The notes under the pieces: generated by a model
Seen by the model: the letters and a program-made list of their open reading frames with translations, nothing else
Told to the model about the DNA's origin: nothing
Database searches by the model: none
DNA from: Loktanella sp. M215
Lineage (GTDB): Bacteria; Pseudomonadota; Alphaproteobacteria; Rhodobacterales; Rhodobacteraceae
Reading direction: 5' to 3'
DNA length: 64,000 nucleotides
Assembly: GCF_021735925.1 (NCBI RefSeq)
Contig: NZ_WMEA01000001.1
Span: 933,001-997,000, forward strand
Shown here: one piece after another, positions 30,638-41,223 of the stretch
Position numbering within the stretch: the first letter of the stretch is position 1
Layout: the number at the start of each line of letters is the position of its first letter
Position numbers and translations under genes: made by a program

Positions 30638-30656
30638 TGGTGCGCACGAGGGAATC
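30638..30656. repeat. Candidate attachment-site repeat at the mutS-side island end
   Basis: TGGTGCGCACGAGGGAATC matches the 3' end of tRNA-Thr at 41148-41167, apart from one missing base and one mismatch, in the same orientation. Base composition turns AT-rich directly after it. This is what a tRNA-targeting integrase leaves at the far end of an integrated element. Confidence 0.65.
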
Positions 30657-31438: not shown

Positions 31439-31744
31439 TTACTGTGTGTCGGATGCGGCATTGCCGCCTGCACCTGCGACGGCGGCAACGACAGCGGCTG
31501 CACCGATCAGACCAGCAGCTCCGCCGGCACCCAGACCACCAAAGAGGGGAACGAAGCCGGTGACGTCATCTTCGTTGCATGTCGCCATAATTGTGTTTTC
31601 TTCGGTCAGGGTAGCACTTGCTACACCGGCATCACCACAAACACCGGACTGTTCCGCAGCCAGCAGGTACGGATCTTCTGCTTCGTCAGCTGCATGACCG
31701 ACAACAGGTGCCAGCGCAAATGTCGCCGCGAGTATCGATTTCAA
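31439..31744 (-). CDS. Small exported glycine/alanine-rich protein (unknown), start lost at an IS junction
   Basis: A 101-residue product beginning KSILAATFALAPVVGHA, a clear signal peptide cleaved about residue 18. A short domain with a cysteine pair (CGDAG..ATCNEDD) follows, then a hydrophobic Gly/Ala-rich segment (FVPLFGGLGAGGAAGLIGAAAVVAAVAGAGG) that could span a membrane. The only start is TTG 31744, with an in-frame stop directly before it, five bases after a truncated transposase. Its natural ATG and promoter were probably replaced. Similar small proteins occur near Roseobacter polysaccharide genes, from memory. Confidence 0.6.
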   Translation of the reverse strand: MKSILAATFALAPVVGHAADEAEDPYLLAAEQSGVCGDAGVASATLTEENTIMATCNEDDVTGFVPLFGGLGAGGAAGLIGAAAVVAAVAGAGGNAASDTQ

Positions 31745-31749
31745 TCACG

Positions 31750-32142
31750 TCATGATGGGCCTTTGGACGTGTCACGTCGGACGACATCCAGAGCGCGGCG
31801 GCGCAGCACCGCGATGTTGCCCGGACCGTTGTCCTTTCGGTTGCGTGCAGCGTCTTCACGGAACGAGACGTCAAGCTGCCAATGCAAATCGTTTTCGATG
31901 GCCCATTGGTCGCGCACCGTGGTCAGCAAGACCTCGGGTGTCGGCATCCAGGACAGGGCGAAATAGCGCGTCTGGGAGGTCACTTTGCCTCCGGTATCGC
32001 GGGTTGCATCAATCTTGGCGAACCCTTTAAGACCCGGAAATTCATGATATTCGCTCAGTGCTTTAGCCGATACGACGTAAGCGACAAGGCAGCCATGTGG
32101 GTTAATGGGCTGCCTGTTTGGGGTTAGGTTTGCTTCGTTCAC
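31750..32142 (-). pseudogene. ISAs1-family transposase remnant
   Basis: The frame contains EYHEFPGLKGFAKIDATRDTGGKVTSQTRYFALSW, DQWAIENDLHWQLDVSFREDAARNRKDNGPGNIAVLRRRALDVVRRD, characteristic of the C-terminal half of ISAs1 (H-repeat) transposases. It breaks off at TSKGPS, where intact proteins continue for about 25 residues, and the first ~25 codons do not match. Both ends are therefore truncated; the likely homologous part is about 31760-32090. Confidence 0.8.
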
Positions 32143-32510: not shown

Positions 32511-34124
32511 CTAATCTGCGATGTAGCATAAGTCCTCGGGAATGTTTCGCCGCACATACAAGGTCCACAAACTTGATCTTCGGCAGACCCTGAACTCCTC
32601 CCCCATCTTCGTGATCAATTCGCGGTTCACCATTTTCTGTCTCGGCCAGTCGATCGATATCATGACCGTATCCACATCGTCTGGGAGCGGACTCGGATCG
32701 GTAAAATATACAAGATTGGTAGTAGGCCACACAGGAAAGGACGCAACGGGGCGCGATCCCGTCGGCATCGTGAAATCGAACTGACGGCCGTTCGAGATGA
32801 TGCCATGGGTCTTCATCGCGGGAATGCCCTGCAAGAGCGCGATCCCGTCGGAAAACATCGTGTATTTGTCTTTTTCGGTCCCATTCTCGGGGACGTCCTG
32901 CCGCGTTTCATCGGCGCGGTCGGCCAAGACGCCCGTGTCGGCCCCAGGTTTCAGATCTTCGAGAGAAAGCACGACGTAATCTTTCGCGGGACCGCTTGCG
33001 ACAAGGGATGCATCCCGGTTGATCACCGACAGTCCCAGGGCCGATGCCGCGCAAACGAAAGCCGGCAGGATGATGAAATAGGCCATGGTGGCAGGCAGGA
33101 TCCTGACCAGAAAGTCTTGACGCGGGCGGCGATCTTTCCCGCCATCTGTTTCGACGTCGCGGCATTTCAGCCCTATAACGGTCAGGATCGGCAACAAAAT
33201 CAGGTCGGCCGAACTGTTCATCGTCAAGATGGCGGCGCCGTATCCGCACATCAGGACGAGAACCGCCAAAATCATTCTCATGCCGCTCTTGTTGTATCTC
33301 AGCATCAGCCACCCGATGAAGATGATGGCCCAAGCCTGTCTGATCATGATCCCGGCGATTCTGACGAGAAAATACGCCAGACTGGTGCTTTCCGCAGCCA
33401 TCGACCCCAAGAGGTAATTCAGCGATCCGAAAAAACGGACCATGCCGGGGTCCATGACCAGCATCCCTGCACAGGCCCCCAGCACCACGAACGCCGCCGA
33501 CAGCCTGCGCGCCTGAATGAGGCAGGCCAGAACGACGCAGGGTCCGAACACGGCGAATGTCGGCTTCAGGAGGGCTAGGGCATAAACGACGATGCCTGCG
33601 AGCAAGGCCGTGGCCATCTCGACCTTTCTGGATCGGGCCTTTTGTAAGCAAAACACCGTGATCGCCATCATCAGGACAATGGCTGCATGATTATATGCGA
33701 ACGAGTGCGCAATCTGGGGTCGATTTATGAAACCTAATTCGATCGGCAACAAGGACAGAAGCAGTGCGGATGAAATTGCCGTCAGCAGGGCCAGTCCCGC
33801 TGACGGCAAGCGCTGCCAGCCGAGTGCCCAGAGCGTGGCGACACATGCGACGCCCATCATGGCGAAGGCATAGTTTATGGCGTAGTAGGTTGCCCCGAAA
33901 AGCTGGAACGCCCAGGTCACGAATTGCGCGGTGACACCCCCGTAGAAATGCGGGTAATCAATGACGGGACGCAGACCATGCACCCCGCGCCACCCCAAAT
34001 TTGCAAGAAAGACGGTATCGTCCATATGCTTGGTGTCGACGAGAACCGGTTGTAGGAGCAGCATCACGAGAAAGGACGCGGCAAGGATCAGGTGAATGAG
34101 GACAGGCAGTCTTTGGCGCGTCAT
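32511..34124 (-). CDS. Polytopic membrane protein, probable GT-C-type glycosyltransferase
   Basis: 537 residues with about 11 membrane segments in the first ~400, then a soluble C-terminal domain. The loop after the first segment reads VLVDTKHMDDTVFLANLGWRG, with acidic residues D30 and D35-D36 where GT-C enzymes carry their catalytic acids, followed by FYGGVTAQFV. GT-C enzymes use polyprenyl-phosphate sugars on the outer face of the membrane. It is the last gene of the operon, overlapping the acetyltransferase by 4 nt, the position held by the specific transferase in gtrAB cassettes. No close family was recognised. Confidence 0.65.
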   Translation of the reverse strand: MTRQRLPVLIHLILAASFLVMLLLQPVLVDTKHMDDTVFLANLGWRGVHGLRPVIDYPHFYGGVTAQFVTWAFQLFGATYYAINYAFAMMGVACVATLWALGWQRLPSAGLALLTAISSALLLSLLPIELGFINRPQIAHSFAYNHAAIVLMMAITVFCLQKARSRKVEMATALLAGIVVYALALLKPTFAVFGPCVVLACLIQARRLSAAFVVLGACAGMLVMDPGMVRFFGSLNYLLGSMAAESTSLAYFLVRIAGIMIRQAWAIIFIGWLMLRYNKSGMRMILAVLVLMCGYGAAILTMNSSADLILLPILTVIGLKCRDVETDGGKDRRPRQDFLVRILPATMAYFIILPAFVCAASALGLSVINRDASLVASGPAKDYVVLSLEDLKPGADTGVLADRADETRQDVPENGTEKDKYTMFSDGIALLQGIPAMKTHGIISNGRQFDFTMPTGSRPVASFPVWPTTNLVYFTDPSPLPDDVDTVMISIDWPRQKMVNRELITKMGEEFRVCRRSSLWTLYVRRNIPEDLCYIAD

Positions 34125-34885
34125 AGGGCGACCTGCGTTTCCTGGCCGACCGGGTACCACTTGTGAAATGTGTGGAACGCGTGATCGACGTGGAAGTCCC
34201 GGCGGGACCACACGCGCTGGACCGTATAGTTGTTCAGTTGCGTCGACGTGATGAGGCGGGCCTGCGCCGCATCGGCGACCGCGCTGCGGGCGTGGTCGAT
34301 CACGGCAGATACGAGGTGGCCATAGATGCCACCGCCCTGTGCTGCGGGGTCCACGGCGTTCAGCACGATTTCCCATTCATCCGGCGCGTTGCGGCGCAGG
34401 GTCAGGAACCCGGAAATCTGCCGGTTCAGGCCAGCGACCAGAACCGGACGGTCGGCCGTCACGTTCCGGATGCTCGTCTCTGCCCATTCCACATAGGCGG
34501 CGTCGGCAGACAGTCTCTCAAGCTTCGGGTCGGAATGAAAATGTCCGACGTAATTGCGAAAGGCCGCGCGGGCCACTTGGCCGACCGCAGTCACGTCGTC
34601 GGGCGTCGCAAGCCGGACGACGATTGCGGTCTGTGCGGACCGGACCGTGCAAGTCGTCTGTAGGCCACGTGCCCAATAGACGAGGCTGTCCATCAGCAGG
34701 TGGCCATCCGCCTCCAGCGCGTGGATGCGGTCGTGGTCGGCGCAATCGATGCGGGTCGTCAGCATCGCGACGTCAAGGCGGCGGGCCGCAGCGTTCAGGG
34801 CCTCCGGGGTGGCCTGTGCATCCGTCGTGCGGGCAAGGACCACACCAAAGCGGCGGCTGCCCAGGTGATCGATTTCAATCGGCAT
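34121..34885 (-). CDS. GNAT acetyltransferase resembling WecD/RffC (dTDP-4-amino-sugar N-acetyltransferase)
   Basis: A 254-residue two-domain protein. The N-terminal part (RRFGVVLARTTDA.. to DGHLLMDSLVYWARG) follows the pattern of WecD/RffC. The GNAT part has YVGHFHSDPKLERLSADAAYVEWAETSIRN (~112-141), the segment typical of WecD, and the acetyl-CoA loop NAVDPAAQGGGIYGHL (176-191). WecD acetylates dTDP-4-amino-4,6-dideoxygalactose, which fits the WecE-like enzyme in this operon. ATG 34885 overlaps gtrA by 11 nt; an upstream ATG is less likely. Confidence 0.75.
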   Translation of the reverse strand: MPIEIDHLGSRRFGVVLARTTDAQATPEALNAAARRLDVAMLTTRIDCADHDRIHALEADGHLLMDSLVYWARGLQTTCTVRSAQTAIVVRLATPDDVTAVGQVARAAFRNYVGHFHSDPKLERLSADAAYVEWAETSIRNVTADRPVLVAGLNRQISGFLTLRRNAPDEWEIVLNAVDPAAQGGGIYGHLVSAVIDHARSAVADAAQARLITSTQLNNYTVQRVWSRRDFHVDHAFHTFHKWYPVGQETQVAL

Positions 34886-35270
34886 CTTGCATTTTCCCGA
34901 ATTTGAGCAAGCGTAAGGATACATAGATCACGACGGCCGTCAGGCCGATGTTGAAGATCTGGGCCAACTGGGGCGGCAACCAGATCAGCAGTATGCGCAA
35001 CATGACCAGTGTCGCGCAGAACCCGATGGCATAGGCGGTCAGGAACTTCGGCACCTCGCGGCTATGCCGTGCCGTGCTTTCGAAGGTCCAAATCCGGTTG
35101 AGCCAGTAGCTCATCGCAACGCCTGCGACGTAGCAGATGCCGGCCGACACCAGCGGACCGGTCCCCGCCCAGACGAGTGCGACGAAGGCAAGGTAGAGGA
35201 CCAGGTTGTTCACGATGCCGACGATACCGTAACGGGTCAGCGTGCGGGCTTCCCGGCGCAGTCTAGTCAC
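34875..35270 (-). CDS. GtrA-family membrane protein (polyprenyl-phosphate sugar flippase)
   Basis: 131 residues with four membrane segments. The GtrA signature is present at the start (LTRYGIVGIVNNLVLYLAFVALVW) and after segment 2 (VAGVAMSYWLNRIWTF). GtrA proteins are thought to move undecaprenyl-phosphate-linked sugar across the inner membrane. It overlaps the GtrB-like gene by 8 nt and the acetyltransferase by 11 nt. Confidence 0.88.
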   Translation of the reverse strand: MTRLRREARTLTRYGIVGIVNNLVLYLAFVALVWAGTGPLVSAGICYVAGVAMSYWLNRIWTFESTARHSREVPKFLTAYAIGFCATLVMLRILLIWLPPQLAQIFNIGLTAVVIYVSLRLLKFGKMQDAD

Positions 35271-36264
35271 GCCGGACCGCGTCTTGCGTCAAAACCGCAC
35301 TGAACGGATGACGTCCGTCCGGCTCGAAGGTCGTGTGCATCACCGAGAGGCGCGGCCTGCCGCGCACTTCCGCGAAAATGCGGCCGATGTAGAGTCCGTG
35401 GATCCCCAGAGTTACCATAATCAGTCCGGACAGAAACCACACGGACAGGATGACGCTGGTCCAGCCGGCGACAGTGAAGATGTTCAGTATACGTCCCATG
35501 AACAGACAAAGAGACACGACGGCCGCGAGCGAGGAGAACGCGAATCCGGCGACAGCGCTCAGCTTGAGGGGGCGATCCGAGAACCGCACGACAATCGCCA
35601 AAGCCAGTCGCAGCAGCCGCAGAATCGAATAGCTGCTCTGTCCCGCGGCGCGGCCACTGCGGTCGACCCGCTTCTTGGCTACCGGCAGGCCGGTCAGGGC
35701 CACCATCATCGGTAGGAACACTTCCTGTTCGCGGAACTTCAGCAGCGAATTTACCATGGTGCGGCTGTAGACCCCGAAGTTACCGACATTCTTGATCTCA
35801 ATCCCCGCCAGCACCTTGATCATCCGGTAGAACTGGGCAGAGGCCGCGCGGCGAAACCACGAATCCGACCATTCCCCACGATCGACGATTAGCGCGTGGG
35901 CAGTATTGGTCTGCGCATCCGCAAACAGGGCAGGCAGGACCGCCGGATCGTCCTGCAGATCGCAGTCGATCACCGCGGTCCAAGCCCCCCGGCAAACCTC
36001 AAGCCCGGCCCAGATGGCCAAGTGCTGGCCGTGGTTGCGTGTTAGCCGGACCCCCCTGATGCGCGGATCGTTCTGTGTCAACTCAAGGATCAGCGGCCAA
36101 GGACGGTCCGGTGCGTTGTCGTCGACGAGGATCAGTTCCCACGTCAAACCGCTGTTATCCATGGTCTGCGTAACGCGTGCGACCAGCTTGGCCAGACAAT
36201 CACGGCAACCATATACCGGAGACACGATGCTAACCTCCGGCGCGTCCAACCTGACTGGTGTCAT
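35263..36264 (-). CDS. GT2 glycosyltransferase, GtrB/ArnC type (polyprenyl-phosphate sugar synthase)
   Basis: 333 residues. The GT-A domain starts VSIVSPVYGCRDCL, has LTRNHGQHLAIWAGLE (~74-89) and the metal-binding DCDLQDDP (100-107). Two membrane segments at ~235-295 end it. This is the arrangement of GtrB, ArnC and dolichyl-phosphate sugar synthases, which move a sugar from a nucleotide to undecaprenyl phosphate. The donor here is likely the product of the WecE- and WecD-like enzymes; that is inference. Confidence 0.88.
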   Translation of the reverse strand: MTPVRLDAPEVSIVSPVYGCRDCLAKLVARVTQTMDNSGLTWELILVDDNAPDRPWPLILELTQNDPRIRGVRLTRNHGQHLAIWAGLEVCRGAWTAVIDCDLQDDPAVLPALFADAQTNTAHALIVDRGEWSDSWFRRAASAQFYRMIKVLAGIEIKNVGNFGVYSRTMVNSLLKFREQEVFLPMMVALTGLPVAKKRVDRSGRAAGQSSYSILRLLRLALAIVVRFSDRPLKLSAVAGFAFSSLAAVVSLCLFMGRILNIFTVAGWTSVILSVWFLSGLIMVTLGIHGLYIGRIFAEVRGRPRLSVMHTTFEPDGRHPFSAVLTQDAVRRD

Positions 36265-37418
36265 GCGCCGGACCTCTGCGGTGCGCTCTGGCTAAAGAAA
36301 TCGTTGACGTGATCGATAACGTCCTCCACTTCCGACCCCAGATCGAAAAACATCGGCAGGCGCACCAGCGTGTCGGATACCCGTTTCGTAACGGCCATGT
36401 CTCCGTGCGTCCTGCTGAATTTTTCGCCCGCAGGGGCCGAATGCAGTGGGATGTAGTGGAATGGTGTTATGACATCACGCTCGCGCATAAAATTTATGAA
36501 GTCGTGCCGCATGTTCTGATCGGGCATAAGCAAATAGAACATGTGCCCATTACCGATCGTATCGGAAGGCGTGACAGGCAGTTGCACCAGTTCCCTGTCC
36601 GCCAAGGGCGTCAGGGCTTCTTGGTAGCGGTCAAACAAGGAGAGGCGCCGCGCCGAAATCGCCTTCTCCGCTTCCAGTTGAGCGCACAGGAATGACGAGA
36701 TGAGCTCGCCAGGCAGGTAAGACGACCCCACATCGACCCAAGTGTACTTGTCGACATCGCCCCGGATGAACCGGGATCGGTTTGTACCTTTTTCGCGGAT
36801 GATCTCGGCGCGCTCCACGAAGGCAGGATTGTTTATCGTCAGTGCGCCGCCCTCGCCGCTGATGACGTTCTTGGTTTCGTGAAAACTGAAGGCTGCAAGA
36901 TCGCCCAAGCTGCCGGCAGGCCGACCCTTGTAGGTGGATCCCAGCGCCTGTGCCGCGTCCTCGACCAGGACCAGATCATGCGCACGCGCGATCTCGGCCA
37001 GCGCGTCCATATCGGCAGGAAATCCGGCATAATGCACAGCAAAGATGGCCTTGGTCTGCGGCGTGACGGCCGCGGCGACGCGGGCGGGATCGATATTCAG
37101 CGTGGCGGGGTCGATGTCGACAAAAACCGGTGTGGCCCTCCGCAGTACGATGGCATTTGCGGTGGACACGAAGGTGAAGGATGGAAGGATCACCTCGTCC
37201 CCTGGACCGAGATCACATAATAGAGCGGCCATTTCCAAGGCCGCCGTGCATGAATGAGTGACCAGTGCCTTGGGGCTCTGTGTGATTTCCTCGATCAGGG
37301 CATTGCAGCGTTTTGTATAGAAGCCGTCACCCGACAGCTGCCCACGCCTAACGGCATCACGCACATATTTGATCTCATTACCGATGAGGCTTGGCTTGTT
37401 CAGTGGGATTTTTACCAT
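36261..37418 (-). CDS. wecE: WecE-like dTDP-4-amino-4,6-dideoxygalactose transaminase (DegT/DnrJ family)
   Basis: PLP sugar aminotransferase, 385 residues. It opens with PLNKPSLIGNEIKYVRDA, has SCTAALEMAALL, and the PLP Lys is K183 in FSFHETKNVISGEGGAL, with VEDAAQALGSTYKGRPAGSLGD before it. The FHETKN form and the C-terminal GNGHMFYLLMPD are typical of WecE/RffA, which makes dTDP-4-amino-4,6-dideoxygalactose from the 4-keto sugar. First gene of the five-gene operon; the ribosome binding site is weak. No dTDP-glucose genes are in the island, so the precursor must come from elsewhere. Confidence 0.88.
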   Translation of the reverse strand: MVKIPLNKPSLIGNEIKYVRDAVRRGQLSGDGFYTKRCNALIEEITQSPKALVTHSCTAALEMAALLCDLGPGDEVILPSFTFVSTANAIVLRRATPVFVDIDPATLNIDPARVAAAVTPQTKAIFAVHYAGFPADMDALAEIARAHDLVLVEDAAQALGSTYKGRPAGSLGDLAAFSFHETKNVISGEGGALTINNPAFVERAEIIREKGTNRSRFIRGDVDKYTWVDVGSSYLPGELISSFLCAQLEAEKAISARRLSLFDRYQEALTPLADRELVQLPVTPSDTIGNGHMFYLLMPDQNMRHDFINFMRERDVITPFHYIPLHSAPAGEKFSRTHGDMAVTKRVSDTLVRLPMFFDLGSEVEDVIDHVNDFFSQSAPQRSGA

Positions 37419-38809: not shown

Positions 38810-39223
38810 TGGATGTGCGCGGTGCTGGGCGTCTCCCGATCCGGCTTTCATGCCTGGCTCAGAAGGCCGATAAGCGAACGCGCGGCTCAGGATGCAAAGC
38901 TCGTCCAGTCGATCGACAAGAGCTTCAAGGCCAGCGATCGCACCTATGGCGCCCGCCGGGTCTGGCGTGACGTTCTGGAAGAAGGTCTCGCATGTGGACT
39001 GCACCGGATCGAACGCTTGATGCGGCTAAATGCAATGAGAGCGCGGCCCAAACGCCGCGGGAACCCGAAGGATGACGGCGAGCGGTCGGTCATCGCCGAC
39101 AACATCCTTGACCGCGACTTCACAGCAGACCGGCCGAACCAGAAGTGGCTTGCCGACTTCACCTACATCTGGACCGCAGAGGGCTGGCTCTACGTGGCGG
39201 TCGTGCTGGACCTGTTCTCCAGG

Positions 39224-39266
39224 GTTCGCCATTGTGCTTGAACCAATGGCGCATCAATGGCTCACC
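39224..39266. repeat. Palindromic insertion A, copy 2 (43 bp, inverted) inside OrfB
   Basis: GTTCGCCATTGTGCTTGAAC.. to ..GGCTCACC, inverse of copy 1 at 38661-38701 with about three substitutions and a 2-nt length difference. It falls between LDLFSR and VGWSM, adjacent blocks in intact IS3 transposases. Confidence 0.75.
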
Positions 39267-39320
39267 GTCGGCTGGTCCATGAAGGCGGAACGGGATGCTT
39301 CACTGGTCATGGATGCGCTG

Positions 39321-39383
39321 ATCCCTCTCATGGTTTGCCAGTCATTCCACCGGAATGACCTGCAAACCACTGCCGGGCAGCGG
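39321..39383. repeat. Palindromic insertion C (63 nt, in frame) inside OrfB
   Basis: Adds 21 codons (IPLMVCQSFHRND..) between VMDAL and MAVWRRGK without breaking the frame. Its core is a 16-bp imperfect hairpin: TGGTTTGC/GCAAACCA and GTCATTCC/GGAATGAC with a 2-nt internal mismatch and ACC loop (39331-39369). Confidence 0.7.
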
Positions 39384-39723
39384 ATGGCCGTCTGGCGGCG
39401 CGGAAAGGCTGACGCGCTGCTCCATCACTCAGACCAAGGATCGCAATATACCAGTGAGCAGTTTCAGCGCCTGCTGCTGGACAACGGCATCATTTGCCGG
39501 GTGAGCCGTGCGGGCAATGTGTGGGACAACTCAGCAATGGAGAGCTTCTTCTCGTCGCTGAAGATCGAACGGACAGCCCGCAAGGTCTACCGCACCCGTG
39601 ACGCGGCACGCGCCGACGTGTTCGACTACATCGAGCGCTTTTACAATCCGAGGCGACGGCATTCGAAGCTGGGCTATCTCAGCCCTATGGCGTTCGAGGA
39701 CCGAGCTATGCAAACCTAACCCG

Positions 39724-39794: not shown

Positions 39795-40982
39795 CTAGGA
39801 TGTCTTGCAGTCGTCCAGATATCCGGCCCACCAATCCGCCAAGCGGACACGCTCATCCCAATGCTCCCCTCGCGCATATGCCCGTCGCACCTGATTCGCT
39901 TCGACGTGAGCCAAGGCGCGCTCAATCGCGTCAGGGTTCCAAAGTCCACTCTCGTTCGCCAGAGTAGAAAACGTGGCGCGAAAACCATGCGAGGTCATTT
40001 CCTCAGCGGAAAAGCCCATGCGTCGAAGTGCTGCATTTAGAGTATTCTCGCTCATGACACGCTGGGCGCTTCTGATCGACGGGAAAAGGTAGCGCCCCGA
40101 TCCAGTCAGCGCCCGCAGTTCGTCGATCACGGCAATAGCTTGTGAAGGCAGTGGCACCTTGTGCGGGCGGCGCATTTTCATGCGCTCCGCAGGAATTGAC
40201 CAAATGCCCGCTTCAAGATCAATGTCCGCCCATTCGGCATGTCGCAGTTCACCGGGGCGCTGGGCAAGGAGCGCCATTAGCTGCAACGCGATGCGGGTGG
40301 CCATCTGTCCTTCGAAAGCGTCCACCGCCCTCAGAAGACCGCCCAGCGCCTTTGGTTCCGTGATCGCGGCACGCGACTTCACCGTCGGCCTGATCAGCGC
40401 ATCTTTAAGGGCATAGGTTGGATCGGTTTCCGCCACACCAACCGCAACAGCAAAACGAAACACCGAACCAATCTGTGCGCGTAGCCGTTTGGCGGTTTCA
40501 TAGTTTCCTTTGGCTTCGACCTTGCGCAGGCATTGCAGAATCATGGGCGACGTAATCTCGGAAATTGGCTTATTGCCAAATGCTGCATTTGCCATCCCGA
40601 GCAACCAATCGGTCTTGGCCAGCGTCGCCGGCGCGCGGCCTTCCTTTATGGCCCGGCTCATAAATGCTTTGGCTTGGCTCTCGAAGGTGTGGCCGCGCCG
40701 TTCCCGGTCTTCGCGCTTGAGCTGTTGCTCCGCCTCGCCGGGGTCTTCGCCCAAGGCCAGCAATGCGCGGGCGTCATCCCGGGCGGATCGCGCCTGCGCT
40801 AAGCTGATTGCCGGATATGCGCCGAACGACAGGAGTTTCTCTTTTTCGGCGATCCGGTACTTCATCGGCCAAAGCTTCGACCCCGACGGCCGGATAGATA
40901 GAAAAAGCCCGTCAAAGTCCGATACCTTGTAAGGTTTGTCACGCGGCTTGAGCGTTCGAATCTTTGCATCTGTCAGGGGCAT
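39795..40982 (-). CDS. P4-type tyrosine integrase of the genomic island
   Basis: 395 residues. The N-terminal DUF4102 arm-binding domain (LTDAKIRTLKPRDKPYKVSDFDGLFLSIRPSGSKLW) is followed by a core-binding domain and a tyrosine recombinase domain. The catalytic set is R242 (QRPGELRH), H332-R335 (SHGFR), H359 (LAHVE) and Y369 (RRAYARG). All are present, so it may still be active. It is transcribed away from the 3' end of tRNA-Thr, the normal layout for islands that integrate into tRNA genes. Confidence 0.95.
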   Translation of the reverse strand: MPLTDAKIRTLKPRDKPYKVSDFDGLFLSIRPSGSKLWPMKYRIAEKEKLLSFGAYPAISLAQARSARDDARALLALGEDPGEAEQQLKREDRERRGHTFESQAKAFMSRAIKEGRAPATLAKTDWLLGMANAAFGNKPISEITSPMILQCLRKVEAKGNYETAKRLRAQIGSVFRFAVAVGVAETDPTYALKDALIRPTVKSRAAITEPKALGGLLRAVDAFEGQMATRIALQLMALLAQRPGELRHAEWADIDLEAGIWSIPAERMKMRRPHKVPLPSQAIAVIDELRALTGSGRYLFPSIRSAQRVMSENTLNAALRRMGFSAEEMTSHGFRATFSTLANESGLWNPDAIERALAHVEANQVRRAYARGEHWDERVRLADWWAGYLDDCKTS

Positions 40983-41147: not shown

Positions 41148-41167
41148 TGGTGCCGCACGAGGGATTC
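41148..41167. repeat. Attachment-site repeat within the tRNA-Thr 3' end
   Basis: TGGTGCCGCACGAGGGATTC, the tRNA end including CCA, is repeated imperfectly at 30638-30656. The integrase gene lies between the two. Confidence 0.65.
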
Positions 41168-41223
41168 GAACCCCCGACCCCATCATTACGAATGATGTGC
41201 TCTACCGACTGAGCTAGTGCGGC
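41148..41223 (-). tRNA. tRNA-Thr (anticodon CGT)
   Basis: The minus strand folds as a cloverleaf: acceptor GCCGCAC/GTGCGGC, D stem GCTC/GAGC, anticodon stem CATCA/TGATG with loop TTCGTAA (anticodon CGT), T stem and loop GGGGGTTCGAATCCCTC, and an encoded CCA end. It reads ACG codons. Its 3' end is the island attachment site. Confidence 0.97.

Follow-up and report, generated by a model that had tools for sequence, protein, structure and literature searches.

The arn (pmr) operon transfers 4-amino-4-deoxy-L-arabinose (Ara4N) onto lipid A and has its sugar steps built in, and the enterobacterial common antigen (ECA) is a polymer containing 4-acetamido-4,6-dideoxygalactose (Fuc4NAc), built via Wzx/Wzy. 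Here we describe a cassette of five genes, wecE, gtrB, gtrA, a wecD-like acyltransferase gene and a gene for a membrane protein of the GT-C fold, in a 64,000-nucleotide stretch of Loktanella sp. M215, hereafter the window (contig C1, positions 933001-997000, of a 5.2 Mb genome, G000, in 11 contigs). Like this cassette, the arn operon unites an aminotransferase, N-acylation, ArnC-type loading, a flippase and a GT-C enzyme. It differs by its UDP-pentose, its formylation followed by deformylation, and ArnEF, where the cassette would use a dTDP-6-deoxyhexose, keep the acyl group and rely on GtrA. Neither an ArnD deformylase nor an ArnEF flippase is found among the five cassette genes, to which this comparison was confined. 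With ECA the cassette shares a WecE above profile cut-offs and a protein whose best match by profile and fold is WecD, but it has GtrB, GtrA and GT-C where ECA relies on Wzx/Wzy, and its acyltransferase, of the GNAT family, carries Trp in place of Tyr208.

Three-component glycosylation systems are established (PMC11127046, PMC3688519). The GtrABC O-antigen cassettes of Salmonella and Shigella are described as consisting of a GtrA flippase, a GtrB synthase and a variable last transferase, with mobile carriage (PMC3688519), and the cassette of the window resembles them in all of these. It differs from them by two built-in nucleotide-sugar enzymes, by an expected WecE/WecD-type sugar instead of glucose, and in that no relative was confirmed in viral-contig scans. 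The pentofuranose systems of Citrobacter (GT136) also combine a lipid-linked donor, a flippase, a GT-C enzyme and an auxiliary sugar enzyme, but have a MATE flippase, a furanose derived from phosphoribosyl pyrophosphate and an epimerase, where the cassette of the window has GtrA, a putative dTDP-sugar, an aminotransferase and an acetyltransferase (PMC11127046). Kelly et al. wrote that they were unaware of further epimerases in O-antigen side-chain systems (PMC11127046); built-in sugar steps thus seem scarce in such systems. A preliminary description of the locus held that gtr cassettes usually add glucose and that the sugar steps are built in here; the built-in steps are present, but cassettes for other sugars are known (PMC11127046). 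The gene combination of the window was not found among the papers listed from the open-licence literature on Fuc4NAc, on three-component or GT-C systems or on aminotransferase cassettes, and no paper in that literature was found to treat Fuc4NAc together with GtrA.

We propose, with a probability of about 0.7, that the locus is a horizontally moved GtrA/GtrB/GT-C three-component glycosylation cassette with its own nucleotide-sugar branch, adding Fuc4NAc onto exopolysaccharide (EPS).

Gene layout and proposed pathway

Five intact open reading frames (ORFs) occupy positions 32511-37418, all on the minus strand as first described, with successive overlaps of 4, 8, 11 and 4 bases (Table 1). Their Pfam matches are, in order, DegT/DnrJ/EryC1, Glycos_transf_2, GtrA_DPMS_TM, Acetyltransf_1 and none. 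Of the family assignments in the preliminary description, WecE, GtrB/ArnC, GtrA and WecD-like were borne out by profiles; the GT-C assignment is upheld by predicted fold, with no Pfam match. In the proposed pathway, RmlA and RmlB of the host would supply dTDP-4-keto-6-deoxyglucose, which WecE would convert to dTDP-Fuc4N (the dTDP-linked 4-amino-4,6-dideoxygalactose) and the WecD-like enzyme would N-acetylate to dTDP-Fuc4NAc. The GtrB/ArnC-type enzyme would load Fuc4NAc onto undecaprenyl phosphate, GtrA would flip the lipid-linked sugar, and the GT-C protein would transfer it to an extracytoplasmic acceptor, most likely the EPS made by a locus on contig C6. Families and folds support this order of steps, already laid out in the preliminary description. 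All the reactions, the stereochemistry of the sugar, the acyl group and the acceptor are predicted from the protein families and from the company that the genes keep; the least secure of these predictions are those of acyl group and acceptor.

The amino sugar and its precursor

WecE exceeded both NCBIfam cut-offs (NF008687, 548.2 bits versus 375; TIGR02379, 515.7 versus 434.85), and its best matches in the PDB, 4piw and 6blg, are both named dTDP-4-amino-4,6-dideoxygalactose transaminase. By curated profiles the aminotransferase is a true WecE, with amination to the galacto product as the predicted reaction. The precursor had been expected to come from the host, no rml genes being seen in the island, and absence of rmlA and rmlB from the genome had been named as decisive against the pathway. 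None of the matches listed for our genome (8 for rmlA, 15 for rmlB) lies inside the window, and two rmlA and two rmlB genes above the TIGR cut-offs were found, all on contig C6.

These rml operons, at 76305-79121 and 127915-130732 of the EPS contig, have near-equal scores (rmlB, 456.4 and 458.2 bits; rmlA, 444.5 and 444.4), and the first 40 residues are identical between the rmlB copies, as they are between the rmlA copies. This suggests a duplication.

The acyltransferase

Among the five families listed for the GNAT protein, WecD ranked first, but below its cut-offs (53.8 bits versus 219 for NF008212; 36.1 versus 195.1 for TIGR02382). The protein nevertheless has the overall WecD fold, with WecD as the nearest structural match. 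We compared the position of WecD Tyr208, the proposed general acid; no paper on this residue was found in the open-licence literature. All six distinct cassette-type GNATs have Trp there, whereas Tyr is kept in 42 of the 43 other GNAT matches, the remaining one having His. The protein thus has WecD as best profile and best structure, as the preliminary description supposed, and the lack of a WecD match, which that description would have counted against its reading, did not occur. It is not a strict WecD, and given the scores and the Trp residue, the identity of the acyl group is less secure than that of the amino sugar. On a Ruegeria plasmid (L125), the GNAT slot is taken by a protein of hexapeptide type (26.9 bits against Pfam Hexapep, whose cut-off is 27); one type of acyltransferase is replaced by another, an argument that the acylation step matters.

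A search across the class found relatives of the acetyltransferase in 15 of 385 genomes (E up to 1e-15), the 14 besides our own being weaker and of the Tyr type. In the short loci around these 14 (about 2.5-3.7 kb), five had a WecE match nearby and none had a match to GtrA, GtrB or GT-C. Tyr-type WecD-like genes beside wecE therefore exist without the cassette.

Predicted lipid loading, flipping and transfer

GtrB matched Pfam PF00535 (6.6e-22) and, in the PDB, the glycosyltransferase sll0501 (7.7e-39) and undecaprenyl-phosphate 4-deoxy-4-formamido-L-arabinose transferase (1.2e-38); its best NCBIfam matches fall short of their cut-offs. GtrA scored 70.6 bits against PF04138 (1.7e-19; cut-off 26.1), which makes it a flippase-type component for which flipping is predicted from the family. 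The fifth protein has about 11 hydrophobic segments followed by a C-terminal non-membrane part of about 165 residues, and its first loop is acidic (Asp36, Asp56). Its structure model, of moderate confidence (predicted template modelling score 0.70, mean predicted local distance difference score 61.4), matches GT-C enzymes, PMT and STT3 included, in fold-match lists where absence of a family is not evidence. Among 12 members, no Pfam match was better than E 0.16, and the search of PDB sequences gave a single match, at E 8.6. The fifth protein thus appears, by predicted fold, to be a GT-C enzyme without a Pfam family.

Recurrence of the cassette

The loci described here are a sample and not a census, the WecE scan covering the best 80 matches. 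The same five-gene order, which the preliminary description had proposed to look for, was found in a Maritimibacter metagenome-assembled genome (MAG; L023) and in a genome of the same family (L120, G343), which argues that the arrangement is not due to chance. Another genome of the family (L159, G151) has four cassette genes, then the contig ends. All five are present on a Pseudorhodobacter turbinis plasmid (L102), with gtrB-gtrA divergent from GT-C, wecE and wecD, while the Ruegeria plasmid carries wecE, gtrB, gtrA, the hexapeptide-type gene and a convergent GT-C gene. At L069, wecE is accompanied by a Trp-type GNAT gene and a gtrB-like gene; the membrane proteins there, by reading, differ from the GT-C of the window. 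In L120, a Poly_export gene follows the cassette, and 3 kb further come rmlB, rmlD and rmlA, all above the TIGR cut-offs.

The cassette is rare in the sampled genomes of the family and order. Searches for the acetyltransferase gave 2 of 295 genomes in the family (our own and G151) and 2 of 390 in the order (our own and G343); a close GT-C was present in 3 of the 390 (our own, G343 and G445), including both that have the acetyltransferase. Neither the GT-C nor the GNAT was found in the three same-genus genomes sampled. Against L120 and L023, WecE is the most conserved protein (66-67% identity) and GT-C the least (32-40%); gtr cassettes likewise show the lowest conservation in their last gene. 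Third codon positions are the most divergent in all four genes compared with these two loci (gtrA left out), a pattern that demonstrates constraint in the family as a whole, but not in our strain by itself.

In a WecE tree, the six cassette proteins fall in a well-supported set of nine, intermixed with those of L022, L024 and L025, from which it follows that genes have been shuffled. WecE was rejected as a cassette marker, since the clade also holds these three loci. The WecE of L022 (1-8306) is the closest to that of the window among the best 80 kept (70%), and is accompanied by ORFs resembling an acyl-protein synthetase/reductase pair and by a GNAT with His at the catalytic position; this locus is possibly another pathway for an acylated 4-amino sugar.

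Twelve other genomes of the order sample gave weak GT-C matches, to a distant, wider group of the same family (for example L122, 5427-7052, and L123, 6946-8586); in the two loci that were read, the gene adjoins an ORF resembling an AAA-type ATPase. At the G445 locus (L119, 8489-11194), a member of the same GT-C family is paired with a GtrB that is divergent (34%), and the 18 kb examined gave no match to wecE or wecD; a transferase of this kind perhaps handles another sugar there.

The likely acceptor

The P. turbinis cassette is embedded in a locus of EPS type, which also encodes a flippase, a pyruvyl transferase, XrtD and a protein of the O-antigen ligase family. Seventeen of the 22 non-cassette proteins tested from this region match contig C6 of our genome (68 kb examined), collinear from HlyD to rhomboid, with identities of 66% for the type I secretion protein (T1SS), 68% for Wzx, 72% for the pyruvyl transferase and 76% for XrtD, and only 33% for one glycosyltransferase. 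The five P. turbinis cassette proteins had no match in these 68 kb; at the cassette slot, C6 has an ORF with a weak GDSL match below cut-off. Because the polymer locus that bears the cassette in the relative is also present in our genome, the EPS of C6 is the most likely acceptor. The preliminary description had expected a surface or periplasmic acceptor and proposed to look for the sugar in lipopolysaccharide (LPS); EPS is better supported than LPS.

The mobile island

The integrase, the neighbouring tRNA-Thr and an IS3-type transposase all lie on one flank of the cassette (Table 1). The distance from mutS to tRNA-Thr is 10.6 kb here versus 1.18 kb in the same-genus genome G967, where the flanks match; at the other 7 same-genus loci no tRNA was present within the flank examined. 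G+C content is 54-62% in the 2-kb segments whose starts lie between 31 and 39 kb; beyond the island and its margins it is 62-69%. Clean att sites were rejected: the attL candidate has a local score of 15, barely above the 14 of the next best match elsewhere in the window.

IMG/VR was scanned with the GT-C protein and with alignments of GT-C and of the acetyltransferase; these scans, made with few peptide patterns and not exhaustive, confirmed no relative, and a phage origin was rejected on that ground. WecE occurs in 82 phage records; the four nearest of the 20 listed comprise two Salmonella records, 98 and 582 kb long, and a pair of fragments without annotation, each shorter than 4 kb, that resemble host DNA. 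The other listed matches are distant.

Table 1. Features of the cassette and its surroundings (window positions).
Feature	Positions	Strand	Remarks
wecE	36261-37418	-	dTDP-4-keto-6-deoxyglucose 4-aminotransferase; expected product dTDP-Fuc4N
gtrB/arnC-like polyprenyl-phosphate sugar synthase	35263-36264	-	2 hydrophobic segments at C terminus (hydropathy)
gtrA, flippase-like	34875-35270	-	GTG start; 4 hydrophobic segments
wecD-like GNAT N-acyltransferase	34121-34885	-	inner ATG start; listed ORF up to 34924
GT-C fold membrane glycosyltransferase (predicted)	32511-34124	-	inner ATG in ATGA overlap; listed ORF up to 34376
Tyrosine integrase	39795-40982	-	Pfam Phage_integrase 1.2e-20, Arm-DNA-bind_3 1.4e-24
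tRNA-Thr(CGT), presumed insertion site	41148-41223	-	
Candidate attL, degenerate copy of tRNA-Thr 3' end	30638-30653	+	87 bases past mutS
IS3-type transposase in two frames	38813-39719		Pfam HTH_21/rve and rve/rve_2
Small Ala/Gly-rich ORF, signal-like start	31439-31744	-	no Pfam match
ORF resembling transposase remnant	31750-32142	-	no Pfam match

Discussion

The gene content, the predicted folds, the conservation of the set, the rml genes and the linkage of some sets to EPS loci are the observations from which the Fuc4NAc-onto-EPS proposal starts. Several points weigh against it. The acetyltransferase falls below the WecD cut-offs, as do those of L120 and L023, and has Trp for the presumed catalytic Tyr. 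The cassette of L023 adjoins tad-type genes (T2SSE, T2SSF/TadB), and the acceptor may differ between carriers. XrtD was found in 5 of 7 carriers (G000, G343, G445 and the two plasmids; the genome of L069 is left out of the count) versus 44 of 199 family genomes above cut-off, with uneven sampling. It was not found in G151 or the L023 MAG, where the control was likewise without a match, so that absence is not shown. This post hoc enrichment (p = 0.007 for all seven carriers, 0.075 for the five genome-derived ones) is suggestive only, and XrtD was rejected as a fixed partner of the cassette.

The same machinery could serve a different N-acyl 4-amino-4,6-dideoxyhexose, of the Qui4N (4-amino-4,6-dideoxyglucose) type or with an acyl group other than acetyl. 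The Trp of all cassette-type GNATs, where other matches mostly have Tyr, and the hexapeptide-type protein of the Ruegeria set would fit this; we consider it unlikely, as WecE scores above cut-off with the profile for dTDP-4-amino-4,6-dideoxygalactose transaminase, in a comparison that left VioA out, and WecD is the structure nearest to the acetyltransferase. If instead Fuc4NAc entered an intracellular Wzx/Wzy repeat unit, in the manner of the WecE and WecD that serve ECA in Enterobacterales, GtrA and GT-C would serve another sugar. This is very unlikely: the cassette has no second glycosyltransferase beyond the GtrB type and GT-C, and its five genes, which overlap, are also found side by side elsewhere.

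As to the acceptor, an ArnT-like transfer onto lipid A or LPS core instead of a polysaccharide seems rather improbable in view of the EPS-type neighbourhoods. Glycosylation of an exported protein, possibly one of the VPLPA-CTERM kind, appears quite improbable: the GT-C fold matches PMT and STT3 too, and both cassette plasmids carry xrtD and VPLPA-CTERM genes (some 9 kb away in P. turbinis, more than 25 kb away in Ruegeria), but XrtD is widespread among genomes of the family, and the search for it gave no match in 2 of the 7 carriers. Finally, a decayed island with no present function would be in keeping with the transposase split into two frames and with the lack of GT-C and GNAT in the same-genus genomes sampled; the five uninterrupted overlapping frames and the excess of third-position differences make it most unlikely.

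A fuller version of the Fuc4NAc-onto-EPS proposal is put forward tentatively, at somewhat less than even odds. In it, Fuc4NAc, or a variant with another acyl group, would travel as a monosaccharide on undecaprenyl phosphate and be attached to a polysaccharide extracellularly by GT-C enzymes of a new family, with a WecD-derived acyltransferase having Trp for the catalytic Tyr. The cassette, moving among plasmids and a tRNA island, would be a ready-made means of converting EPS type in Rhodobacterales. The GT-C group without a Pfam family and the altered GNAT active site pose two concrete questions of enzymology, and the five genes are a unit small enough to test, of use in glycan engineering and in the study of bacterial surface change. 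If the proposal is true, three-component glycosylation, so far a matter of common hexoses and pentofuranoses, would take in an N-acylated dideoxy-aminosugar, with its synthesis included in the operon.

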